Under the pieces are notes generated by a model. The model ran no database searches. It saw nothing but the letters and a program-made list of their open reading frames with translations, and had not been told where the DNA came from. Positions 25,123-57,974 of a stretch of DNA of 64,000 nucleotides are shown here, piece after piece. Position 1 is the stretch's first letter. The number at the start of each line of letters is the position of its first letter. The translations under genes and the position numbers were made by a program. The stretch comes from an uncultured Gemmatimonadales bacterium (GTDB taxonomy: Bacteria; Gemmatimonadota; Gemmatimonadetes; JACCXV01; JAHWKZ01): contig CAMYLR010000008.1 of the NCBI GenBank assembly GCA_947259315.1, positions 32,781-96,780 of the forward strand. The letters are read 5' to 3'.

Positions 25123-26639
25123 GACTCACCCTCGTTTTCAACCCGACCCTCCTCGGGACGCAGTGCCGGGAATAGGATGACATCCCTGATGGCCGGTTGA
25201 TCGGTCAAGAACATCACTAGGCGGTCAATGCCGATCCCCATACCGGCAGTTGGCGGCATGCCGTACTCAAGAGCTCTCAAGAAATCTTCGTCTACGACGT
25301 TCGGCGCCTCCAGGTCACCAGCCGCAGCGAGCTCGGCTTGATCCTCTAACCGGCGCCGCTGGTCGCGAGGATCATTAAGCTCACTAAAAGCGTTTGCCCA
25401 TTCGCGCCCAAACAGGTAGGCCTCGAATCGTTCCACCAGCCGGGGATCGCGTGGGTGAGCCTTGGCCAAGGGCGACGTCAACCGCGGGTGATCAATCACG
25501 AACACCGGCCCTTCGAGAGTCGGCTCGACGAGATGATCGAAGAGCGCCTCTAGGATCTTGCCCTCTCGCTCTTGTTCCGAGATCTCGATTTCGTGTTGCG
25601 CCGCCTCCGCGACCAGAGCTGTCCGTGACAGATCGTCGACCGCTACACCGTGGTCGGCTAACGCATTCAAGAAACCGAGCCGTGGCCACGGTGGCGTGAC
25701 GTCTACGCTCCGACCTTGGTACGTAATCTCGGCACCACCGGTCACTTCTCCTACCAGACCGACCAAAAGCTCTTCCGCCAGCACCATGAAATCCTCGTAA
25801 TCGGCGTACGCCTGATAGAACTCGAGCATCGTGAACTCAGGACTGTGAAACCGATCAATGCCTTCATTGCGGAAGTCCTTGGCCACCTCGTAGACACGCT
25901 CGAGCCCCCCAACGATGCACCTTTTCAGATACAACTCATCGGCGATACGCAAATACAACGGAACGCCCAGCGCTTGGTGATGGGTCACGAACGGGCGCGC
26001 GGTGGCGCCACCATACACCGGTTGCAGAACGGGCGTCTCGACCTCGAGAAAACCGCGGTTTTCGAGCTCGTCTCTCAGATATCGGATGATCTGTGACCGA
26101 CGCTCAAAAACTCCCCTGGCCTCCGGCCGGACGGCAAGGTCGGCGTAGCGCTGCCGATAACGAAATTCGCGATCGACCACGCGGTGGTACGCCCGATCTC
26201 CGTCCTCTGATTCCACGAGCTTCCCAAACGGCAGCGGCCGCAGAGCCTTCGCCAGCAGCACCGCCTCGCGTACCCGCACGGTGATCTCCCCCGTCCGCGT
26301 ACGAAATAGATGGCCCGCAACTCCGACAAAGTCCCCTATATCCAGGTGATCAACCAGACGGTACGCGTCGCCAAGCTCGTCTTGCCGCAGATATGCCTGG
26401 ACGCGACCTGACCGGTCAGCCACATGAAAGAACGTCGTCTTCCCGTGCCGGCGAACGGTCACGACTCGACCCGCGATTCGGCATTCGATGTCCTCCCCTT
26501 CGTCCTCGAAGGCCTCGACCAGATCCGCAGCCGAATCGGTCACCTCCCAGGACGACGGATACGGATCGACACCGATTCGCTCGAGGTCGATCAGTTTCGA
26601 CAGTCGAACCGATTGAGGATCAGTTTCTCGGTCAGGCAT
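25119..26639 (-). CDS. lysS: Lysyl-tRNA synthetase, class II
   Basis: This 506-residue enzyme charges tRNA-Lys. An N-terminal OB-fold anticodon domain (CRIAGRVVTVRRHGKTTFFHVADRSGRVQAYL, about 52-140) precedes the class II core. The core contains FLEVETPVLQPVYGGATARPF (motif 1), RNEGIDRFHSPEFTMLEFYQAYADY (motif 2) and GMGIGIDRLVMFLTDQPAIRDVILFP (motif 3). Length is normal. The ATG overlaps the prfB stop by one base (TGATG), pairing two translation genes as in E. coli, where prfB precedes lysS. Confidence 0.97.
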   Translation of the reverse strand: MPDRETDPQSVRLSKLIDLERIGVDPYPSSWEVTDSAADLVEAFEDEGEDIECRIAGRVVTVRRHGKTTFFHVADRSGRVQAYLRQDELGDAYRLVDHLDIGDFVGVAGHLFRTRTGEITVRVREAVLLAKALRPLPFGKLVESEDGDRAYHRVVDREFRYRQRYADLAVRPEARGVFERRSQIIRYLRDELENRGFLEVETPVLQPVYGGATARPFVTHHQALGVPLYLRIADELYLKRCIVGGLERVYEVAKDFRNEGIDRFHSPEFTMLEFYQAYADYEDFMVLAEELLVGLVGEVTGGAEITYQGRSVDVTPPWPRLGFLNALADHGVAVDDLSRTALVAEAAQHEIEISEQEREGKILEALFDHLVEPTLEGPVFVIDHPRLTSPLAKAHPRDPRLVERFEAYLFGREWANAFSELNDPRDQRRRLEDQAELAAAGDLEAPNVVDEDFLRALEYGMPPTAGMGIGIDRLVMFLTDQPAIRDVILFPALRPEEGRVENEGES

Positions 26640-27755
26640 CAGCTGCTGCTACCGGCTGTCTGCTTCAGATACGCCTCCATGAACTCGATCAGATGTTGCC
26701 CCTGGAGCACACCCTCGACATCCGACATCTCATACCCCGTTCGGTGGTCCTTGACCATCGTGTATGGATGCAGCACGTACGACCTGATCTGGCTGCCGAA
26801 CGCGATCTCCTTCTTCTCCGCCTCCAGCTCCTCGCGTGACTTCTCACGCTCGGCCTTGAGGTACTGGTGTAGCCTCGATCTCAACAGGCGCATGGCGGTC
26901 TCACGATTCCGATGTTGACTGCGCTCAGCTTGACTCTGAACGACGATGCCTGTCGGGAGGTGAGTGATCCGCACCGCACTGTCCGTCTTGTTCACATGTT
27001 GTCCGCCTGCACCGCTGGCGCGATACGTGTCGATCTTCAAGTCCTTGTCTACGACCTCTACGTTGATCTCGTCCGCCACATCCGGATAGACAAACACCGA
27101 GGCGAAGGAGGTGTGCCGCCGGGCGGCAGAATCAAACGGGCTTATGCGCACTAGCCGATGCACGCCTTTCTCCGCTTTGAGGTAGCCGTAGGCGTGGTCA
27201 CCCTTGACCTCGATCGTGACGCGGTCGATCCCCGCCTCTTCGCCTTCCTGAATATCGATGATCTGATAAGCGTAGCCGTTGCTCTCAAACCATCGCGTGT
27301 ACATGCGCATGAGCATCGAGGCCCAATCCTGGCTCTCAGTGCCACCTGCACCAGGGTGAATGGTGAGGATTGCGTCGCGAGAATCGTCCGCATCGCTCAG
27401 CATGCCTCTCAGTTCGAGGCGAGCCAGCCGATCGGCGATGCCTCCCTCGAGCGCACCAAACTCGTCCCAAAGAGCAGCCTCTTCCTCACCCTCGAGCAGA
27501 GACAGCATCTCACCGGCTTCGTCGACCTCGACTCGGAGTGCATCGTACTCTCCGACCCACGACTGGTGTTGCTTGATCTCGGCTAGTATCGCCCGCGCGC
27601 GCTCATTATCAACCCAGAAATCCGGCGCCGCGGACTCCGTCTCGAGCGCGGCTATCCGCTCTCGCTTGGAAGGCAGGTCAAAGATAGCTCCCGAGGAGCT
27701 CGAGCCGCTCCTCTAGTTGCGACAATCGGCGGCGGTGGTCTCGTACGTCACTCAT
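26639..27755 (-). CDS. prfB: Peptide chain release factor 2 (requires +1 programmed frameshift)
   Basis: RF2 ends translation at UGA and UAA. Translation starts at ATG 27755 and reads 25 codons to an in-frame TGA (27680-27678). A +1 shift at CTT-TGA-C continues in frame to 26639, giving about 371 residues. After the shift the protein reads DLPSKRERIAALE, the conserved RF2 start. Later motifs are the SPF anticodon tripeptide in RISPFDSAARRHTSFA and the GGQ loop in SGAGGQHVNKTDSAVRI. The open frame from the ATG at 27508 alone would lack the N-terminal coiled coil. lysS follows directly. Confidence 0.95.
27677..27692 (-). promoter_or_regulatory. prfB programmed +1 frameshift site
   Basis: The minus strand reads GGGAG (27692-27688), CTAT, then CTTTGAC (27683-27677). 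This matches the classic RF2 element: an internal Shine-Dalgarno-like sequence a few bases before CUU-UGA-C. Low RF2 lets the ribosome pause at UGA and slip from CUU to UUU, so the factor controls its own synthesis. Confidence 0.93.
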
Positions 27756-55995: not shown

Positions 55996-56232
55996 CTACT
56001 CTTCGGTCTTGTTCTTTAAGTACGAAGTCGCTTCCCCAACAGTGGTGAGCTTCTCAGCGTCTTCATCTGGAATCTCGATGTCGAACTCCTCCTCGAATGC
56101 CATAACCAGCTCGACGGTGTCAAGCGAGTCAGCGCCCAGATCTTCGACAAAGGACGCATCAGCACTCACTTTCTCGCCGTCTACACCGAGGTTCTCGACG
56201 ATGATCTCTTTCACCCGTGCCTCGACGGTCAT
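55996..56232 (-). CDS. acpP: Acyl carrier protein
   Basis: This 78-residue acidic helical protein has the phosphopantetheine serine S36 in [20 protein letters not shown]. It carries growing acyl chains for FabD/H/G/F and donors for LpxA/LpxD. Strong GGAGG precedes ATG 56232. It lies in the order fabG-acpP-fabF. Confidence 0.98.
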
Positions 56233-56289: not shown

Positions 56290-57048
56290 TCAGCGTGTTA
56301 GACCTCCATCCACGCAGATAACCTGGCCCGTAATATAGTCGCTCATCGGTGAGGCGAGGAACAACGCCAGATTGGCCACGTCGTCGGGGAGTCCCAACCG
56401 ACCCAGCGGGATTCGACCGAGAAACTCCTCTCGTGCTCCATCGCCGAGCGCCGCGGTCATTTCGGTCTCGACAAAACCCGGCGCAATGACGTTAACGGTC
56501 ACGTTTCGGGACGCTAGCTCCTCGGCCAGTGACTTCGAGAACCCGATTAGCCCAGCCTTGGAGGCGGCGTAATTGGATTGGCCGGCGTTTCCGGTGACAC
56601 CAACGATTGAAGCGATGTTAATGATACGGCCCTCTTTCTGACGTATCATCCGCTTGGCCGCCAATCTGCACCAGTGATAAGCGCCATAAAGATTGGTCTC
56701 GAGCACACTGCGCCACTCCTCGGGTTTCATCCTGAGCAGCAGGTTATCACGAGTTATGCCGGCATTGTTGACCAGCACATCGAGCTGGCCAAACTCGTCT
56801 TGGTAGGTGCCCCAGGCGTGCTCGACCTGTTCCTGGTCAGCCACATCACCGGTGAGCTCGAGGCTGGCCACGCCTTTCTGCCGCAGTGCGTTCGCCGTTT
56901 CGGCCACTGTGTCCGCGTTGCGCGCAAAAACCGCCACGTCGGCGCCAGCCGCGGCCAGACCCTCGGCGATAGCACGACCGATTCCTCGATTGCCGCCGGT
57001 GACCAGGGCTTTTCTGCCGCTGAGATCTATGCTGGTCGTGATACCGAT
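56290..57048 (-). CDS. fabG: 3-oxoacyl-ACP reductase FabG with non-canonical start
   Basis: The body is unmistakable FabG: Rossmann ALVTGGNRGIGRAIAEGL, DVLVNNAGITRDNLLLRMKPEEW, catalytic NIASIVGVTGNAGQSNYAASKAGLIG, and the C-terminal SDYITGQVICVDGG. It reduces 3-ketoacyl-ACP with NADPH. No ATG, GTG or TTG lies in frame before the Rossmann motif; the first is a GTG at 56937, which would delete the cofactor site. A GGAGG at 57056-57060 points to ATC 57048 (252 residues), with ATC 57042, ACG 57039 and ATA 57030 as alternatives. The 5' end overlaps fabD by about 22 bases. Confidence 0.85.
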   Translation of the reverse strand: MGITTSIDLSGRKALVTGGNRGIGRAIAEGLAAAGADVAVFARNADTVAETANALRQKGVASLELTGDVADQEQVEHAWGTYQDEFGQLDVLVNNAGITRDNLLLRMKPEEWRSVLETNLYGAYHWCRLAAKRMIRQKEGRIINIASIVGVTGNAGQSNYAASKAGLIGFSKSLAEELASRNVTVNVIAPGFVETEMTAALGDGAREEFLGRIPLGRLGLPDDVANLALFLASPMSDYITGQVICVDGGLTR

Positions 57049-57974
57049 CGCGATGCCTCCTCGATGATCTGTTCCTCGGTGTCGATCGGGCGCCCCGCAA
57101 GTGACCGGTCGATCCGTCTCAAGAGCCCAGTTAGCACTTTGCCGGGACCGACCTCGAGAAACACGGTAGCTCCGAGATCGCGGAGCCGGTTCACGCAGTC
57201 GACCCAGCGCACCGGCGCTGTCAATTGCCCGAGTAGCCGCGCGCGAATCGCGTCCGGTTCGGTCACGGGTTCCGCGTCTACGTTCGCCACCACCGGACAG
57301 ATCGCTGTGCGGACATCGACGGCATCGAGAACGGCTCCAAGCTCACGCGCCGCTGGCGCCATGAGCGCTGAATGAAAAGCGCCCGAGACATTTAGCTCGA
57401 CCGCTTTACGCGCACCCCATTCTGGGGCCACCTCGATCGCTCGCCTAACGGCGCTCACTGATCCCGACACGACGATCTGTCCAGGAGCGTTGAAGTTGGC
57501 CGGTGTCAGCACTTCATCAGATCCCCGAACCGCGTCGCAAAGTGCCACCACGTCGGCGCTATCCATGCCGATCAGTGCGGCCATCGTGCCCGGTCGGTCG
57601 CGCCCAGTCGCGGCCATCGCCTCCCCACGTGCCCGAACCAGCCGGAGCCCATCCGAGAACGAGAGGCTACCAGCTACGACATGAGCCGAGAACTCGCCGA
57701 GGCTATGGCCTGCGGCCGACTCCGGTTCTATGCCTTCGGCTGCGAGCACCCGCGCCACCGCTACCGAATGCGTGAGGAGCGCCGGCTGGGCGTTCTCCGT
57801 CGCGCGCAGCTCTTCCTCTGGGCCATCCCAACACAACCTCGACAACGCCACGCCGAGTAAGTCGTCGGCCTGCTCAAACGTCTGCTTGGCCTCAGCCCGC
57901 GCGGCTGCCAAATCAGCACCCATTCCAACGAACTGGCTTCCCTGTCCGGGGAACTGGAACGCGATCGACGACAA
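57027..57974 (-). CDS. fabD: Malonyl-CoA:ACP transacylase
   Basis: This is about 315 residues from TTG 57974, three bases after the fabH stop; a GTG at 58004 in the same frame is inside fabH. Motifs: FQFPGQGSQFVGMG near the N terminus, the nucleophile serine in AGHSLGEFSA, GTMAALIGM, and the catalytic histidine in VSGAFHSALM. It loads malonyl groups onto ACP. Confidence 0.94.
   Translation of the reverse strand: MSSIAFQFPGQGSQFVGMGADLAAARAEAKQTFEQADDLLGVALSRLCWDGPEEELRATENAQPALLTHSVAVARVLAAEGIEPESAAGHSLGEFSAHVVAGSLSFSDGLRLVRARGEAMAATGRDRPGTMAALIGMDSADVVALCDAVRGSDEVLTPANFNAPGQIVVSGSVSAVRRAIEVAPEWGARKAVELNVSGAFHSALMAPAARELGAVLDAVDVRTAICPVVANVDAEPVTEPDAIRARLLGQLTAPVRWVDCVNRLRDLGATVFLEVGPGKVLTGLLRRIDRSLAGRPIDTEEQIIEEASRSVSRPA

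Follow-up and report, generated by a model that had tools for sequence, protein, structure and literature searches.

Where does translation of fabG begin when its reading frame offers no ordinary start codon ahead of the cofactor-binding site? The question arises in a window of 64,000 nucleotides, the whole stretch of DNA analysed here, which belongs to a draft genome of 2.4 Mb; the closest relatives that carry a name are Gemmatimonadota. The minus strand of the window carries plsX, fabH, fabD, fabG, acpP and fabF in this order (open reading frames, with names assigned from sequence). The protein encoded by the fourth of these scored 322.9 bits against TIGR01830, an equivalog model with a curated cut-off of 297.75, and its translation contains both the NADP motif TGGNRGIG and the active-site YAASK (YxxxK). 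By its position in the fab operon, the score above the cut-off and the presence of both motifs, the gene is identified from its sequence as FabG (3-oxoacyl-ACP reductase), an enzyme essential to fatty-acid synthesis.

The FabG frame, which stops at 56290, is open upstream as far as a TGA at 57345 on the minus strand, and no ATG, GTG or TTG occurs in it between this TGA and the NADP motif. The first standard in-frame start is GTG 56937, located 37 codons past ATC 57048 and beyond the motif. This bears out the preliminary description, which had claimed that fabG has no usable ATG, GTG or TTG start, and a sibling species likewise has none nearby. Also as described there, GGAGG (57060-57056) is well placed for ATC (57048-57046), at a distance of 7 nt, and the ATC is in the FabG frame. 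Further near-cognate codons in frame, which the description had passed over, are ATC 57042, ACG 57039 and ATA 57030; the last of these forms AUAG together with the fabD stop. The features are listed in Table 1.

Table 1. Features at the fabD-fabG junction and their positions in the window.
Feature	Position	Strand	Basis
fabG, 3-oxoacyl-ACP reductase	56290..57048	-	drawn from best-spaced candidate start, ATC 57048
fabD, malonyl-CoA:ACP transacylase	57027..57974	-	ORF; stop TAG 57029-57027
fabD start TTG, proposed	57974	-	picked by eye from FQFPGQGSQ motif
acpP, acyl carrier protein, next gene	55996..56232	-	ORF, ATG start; name from sequence
GGAGG Shine-Dalgarno, within end of fabD	57056..57060	-	sequence; also in sibling G001, L010, L011
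ATC, candidate start 1, 7 nt after GGAGG	57046..57048	-	spacing in genome's 4-7 nt mode; sibling has same
ATC, candidate start 2, 13 nt after GGAGG	57040..57042	-	aligns with L010, L011 ATG; sibling has same
ATA, candidate start 3, AUAG overlap with fabD stop	57028..57030	-	sequence; sibling has same

The start region was compared with that of the sibling G001, the only other species of the genus in the comparison, whose FabG is 91% identical. The window species reads CGA GGA GGC ATC GCG ATC GGT ATC ACG ACC AGC ATA GAT CTC and G001 reads CGA GGA GGT TTC GCA ATC TGT ATC ACG ACT AGC ATA GAT CTG, with the series ATC, ATC, ACG, ATA common to both. No ATG, GTG or TTG is present near the fabG start of G001; upstream, within the reach of its contig, the sole standard codon is a TTG 52 codons away, which the window species does not have. 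A base error, as feared in the preliminary description, might be suspected in a draft genome, where sequencing or assembly could have removed an ATG or GTG. Since G001 shares the absence of a standard start, the error would need to have occurred in both genomes, and this independent genome carries the same codon series amid other, mostly synonymous, differences. An error of this kind is therefore very unlikely.

The differences between the two genomes also locate the onset of constraint on the FabG frame. Over the 36 codons from 57048 to 56938 there were 12 synonymous differences and a single non-synonymous one, the latter at 57045 between the two ATCs, whereas further upstream 94 codons of this frame contained 6 synonymous and 36 non-synonymous differences (Fisher test, 12/1 versus 6/36, p about 5e-7). 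The constraint thus begins at 57048 or 57042, which indicates that the FabG protein begins at or very near one of these codons. Solved FabG structures match the protein read from ATC, beginning roughly at its residue 7-9. The onset also excludes starts far upstream as well as GTG 56937, the first standard in-frame start and the one that a standard gene finder would call. The codons ahead of this GTG show protein-level constraint and encode TGGNRGIG, which binds the cofactor, leaving a start there with a negligible probability; if only ATG, GTG and TTG were accepted in gene finding, FabG would lose its NADP site both here and in the sibling.

Part of the constrained stretch, 57048-57027, doubles as coding sequence for the end of FabD, and the ATC codons could persist in both species because they are part of the FabD coding sequence too. 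Between 57042 and the fabD stop the two species differ once, by ACC/ACT at 57036; this difference is silent in FabG and alters FabD, in keeping with constraint on FabG in that stretch. Relative to fabD, FabG is read in the -1 frame, which is open far upstream, an arrangement that would allow a FabD-FabG fusion through a -1 frameshift before the fabD stop. Such a fusion seems highly improbable, as the upstream FabG frame is unconstrained, no slippery heptamer was seen by eye in the last fabD codons, and relatives have ATG or GTG starts.

The start codon was compared in relatives, as the preliminary description had recommended: G001 keeps the ATCs and three family relatives have ATG, ATG and GTG, which places the change to ATC within the genus. 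In the start-region comparison across loci, which rests on correctly oriented rows, the family relatives L010 and L011 have ATG at the place of ATC 57042, counted as four codons ahead of Ile-Asp-Leu, and 10 nt from their own GGAGG. In L012, also of the family, a GTG is found one codon later than this ATG. The leader of the window fabG is one codon longer than in L010 and L011. A scan of genome contigs yielded no relative closer than the two already known, and no further copies turned up in a scan of viral contigs. In a survey of the best FabG match per genome, irrespective of a position beside fabD, nearly all other readable fabGs have a standard start, in most cases 10-19 codons ahead of the motif. 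The one exception is in another genome of the class (L029, G043:C37:171795-172526), where the nearest standard fabG start lies 46 codons before the NADP motif, which may reflect either a long leader or another non-canonical start.

The two ATC codons are favoured by different kinds of evidence. Over 687 kb of the genome there are 57 GGAGG-ATG pairs, of which 36 are spaced by 4-7 nt and only one by 13 nt, so that Shine-Dalgarno spacing favours ATC 57048 over ATC 57042, whereas homology favours ATC 57042. ATC 57048 is near-cognate, in frame with FabG, 7 nt from GGAGG and present in the one sibling species compared. By our judgement it is the start with slightly better than even probability, and ATC 57042 is a less likely but serious candidate. 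The start at ATC 57048 put forward in the preliminary description is plausible and the best spaced, with ATC 57042 as its main rival. RNA folding around the fabG start gave nothing beyond shuffled sequence (z 0.55; 1.61 for the sibling stretch).

Translation might instead start at ATA 57030 by termination-reinitiation, with the ribosome at the fabD UAG stepping back one base within AUAG. The AUAG overlap is present in both species, and the protein would begin level with several members of the class, e.g., L019 and L025. However, GGAGG is 25 nt away, leaving no Shine-Dalgarno at a usable distance, the ATA corresponds to an internal Ile in family relatives that have ATG further up, and non-synonymous change is likewise absent from codons 57042-57031, albeit over a short stretch. 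We judge a start at this ATA to be improbable, with other codons sharing the remainder.

An AUC start would have to be used by the initiation machinery of this organism. Its initiator tRNA is of the usual kind (CAU anticodon, three G-C pairs in the stem), and among the tRNAs typed, all but a few, no initiator with another anticodon was found. Initiation factor 3 (IF3), the product of infC and the protein that checks start codons, shows no obvious loss in this family when aligned with its counterparts in the class. With an ordinary CAU initiator, AUC would be read with a third-base mismatch, and complexes of this kind are destabilised by IF3. An in vitro survey reports that weak third-base pairs are excluded by IF3 (PMC10158994). 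IF3 represses infC (AUU start in E. coli, AUC in Streptomyces) as well as the GTC-started sigR (PMC5472188), and reinitiation drops when IF3 is in excess, an effect that a Shine-Dalgarno lessens (PMC2268962).

The explanation that we consider probable as a whole is that the ordinary initiator tRNA begins translation of fabG at AUC, at 57048 or else at 57042, and that fabG would be sensitive to IF3. The missing standard start, its conservation in two species, the point at which protein constraint sets in and the ATC start of infC were observed directly; to these we add by inference the use of AUC itself, the coupling to fabD and the control of fabG by IF3. The standard fabG start would have been lost within the genus, with a weak AUC in its place. 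The GGAGG in the end of fabD would guide the initiator tRNA to the AUC, and ribosomes finishing fabD a few codons downstream probably help fabG by translational coupling. Because IF3 rejects AUC starts, fabG output would be held down and, like that of infC, would increase at low IF3. Such control would have good precedents in infC and Streptomyces sigR, and if it is true, a start codon alone would connect the synthesis of lipids with the machinery of translation.

The window gene is not the only one in this genome with a weak start. Stretches totalling 687 kb (29% of the genome, 624 predicted genes) were surveyed, and few other genes showed strong coding signal ahead of all their standard starts. 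The infC gene (L118, G000:C8:18837-19385, minus strand, outside the window) has an ATC start in the context AAGGAGG TTCAC ATC AGC AAT. The ATC is also found in the sibling, and other family members and many class members have ATA or ATC; one genus has GTG. In recG (L224, G000:C24:52860-54932, plus strand; L225, L226, L227), a CTG overlapping TGA (CTGA) is common to four family species, with no standard start between this CTG and the RecG N-terminus in these four, and CTG is probably the start. The ispD genes of three species (L193, G000:C4:175455-176165, minus strand; L194, L196) keep CTG ATC at the expected start. The only nearby standard start of ispD is an in-frame GTG a few codons later that would leave a very short N-terminus, and ispD perhaps has a weak CTG start as well.

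The probable CTG of recG and perhaps that of ispD suggest that weak starts are generally tolerated at gene overlaps in this family. By this reasoning, the AUC of fabG may be merely tolerated, the strong GGAGG and the overlap with fabD having made the loss of ATG nearly neutral, with no regulation by IF3. That a costly start has outlasted the divergence of two species points to some benefit, or else to a low cost, and does not tell the two apart. Simple tolerance accounts for the sequence equally well as IF3 sensitivity does, and we give it an even chance. It concerns the regulatory step only and is compatible with an AUC start, so that the likelihoods given to the two are not exclusive. In the opposite direction, a more far-reaching reading would treat infC, fabG, recG and perhaps ispD as a set of housekeeping genes in this Gemmatimonadota family. 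Through their weak but conserved starts (AUC, AUA, CUG), the making of membrane lipids, among other functions, would follow the IF3 level and with it the capacity for translation; this we regard as unlikely.

Among known systems, infC of E. coli (AUU) and Streptomyces (AUC) resembles fabG in that a good Shine-Dalgarno precedes an AUN codon, other than AUG, as the start or probable start. The infC parallel drawn in the preliminary description fits well, since infC of the same genome shares the codon AUC with the proposed fabG start. Unlike fabG, infC encodes the factor that rejects its own start, giving autoregulation, whereas fabG is an enzyme gene without such a loop and overlaps the preceding gene. 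The E. coli pcnB gene, grouped with infC and sigR as having a non-canonical start that IF3 discriminates against, has an AUU start, and is similar to fabG as an AUN start on a gene unrelated to translation, with another codon, gene and organism. To our knowledge, very few bacterial genes besides infC start at AUN other than AUG, and fabG, a core gene of fatty-acid synthesis, would join those few through its conserved AUC. Streptomyces sigR (PMC5472188) is like fabG in having a conserved non-canonical start, outside the translation genes, that standard annotation overlooks; its codon and gene are different, and its IF3 dependence is experimental, whereas that of fabG is deduced. We regard the absence of a standard fabG start as real and not an artefact, and the probable AUC start as a new example, conserved in two species, among the known non-canonical starts.

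Several top candidates of the survey were dismissed because they looked antisense by eye or lay at contig ends or beside N runs. The prfB gene for release factor 2 (window 26639-27700, minus strand) was also set aside as a weak-start candidate, as it carries CTT TGA C, the usual programmed +1 frameshift site of RF2. A serB-like (phosphoserine-phosphatase-like) gene at L221 (G000:C3:18099 onward, plus strand), for which the sibling match begins only at residue 29 and leaves the start unconfirmed, has a possible ATC start behind AAGGGGGG.
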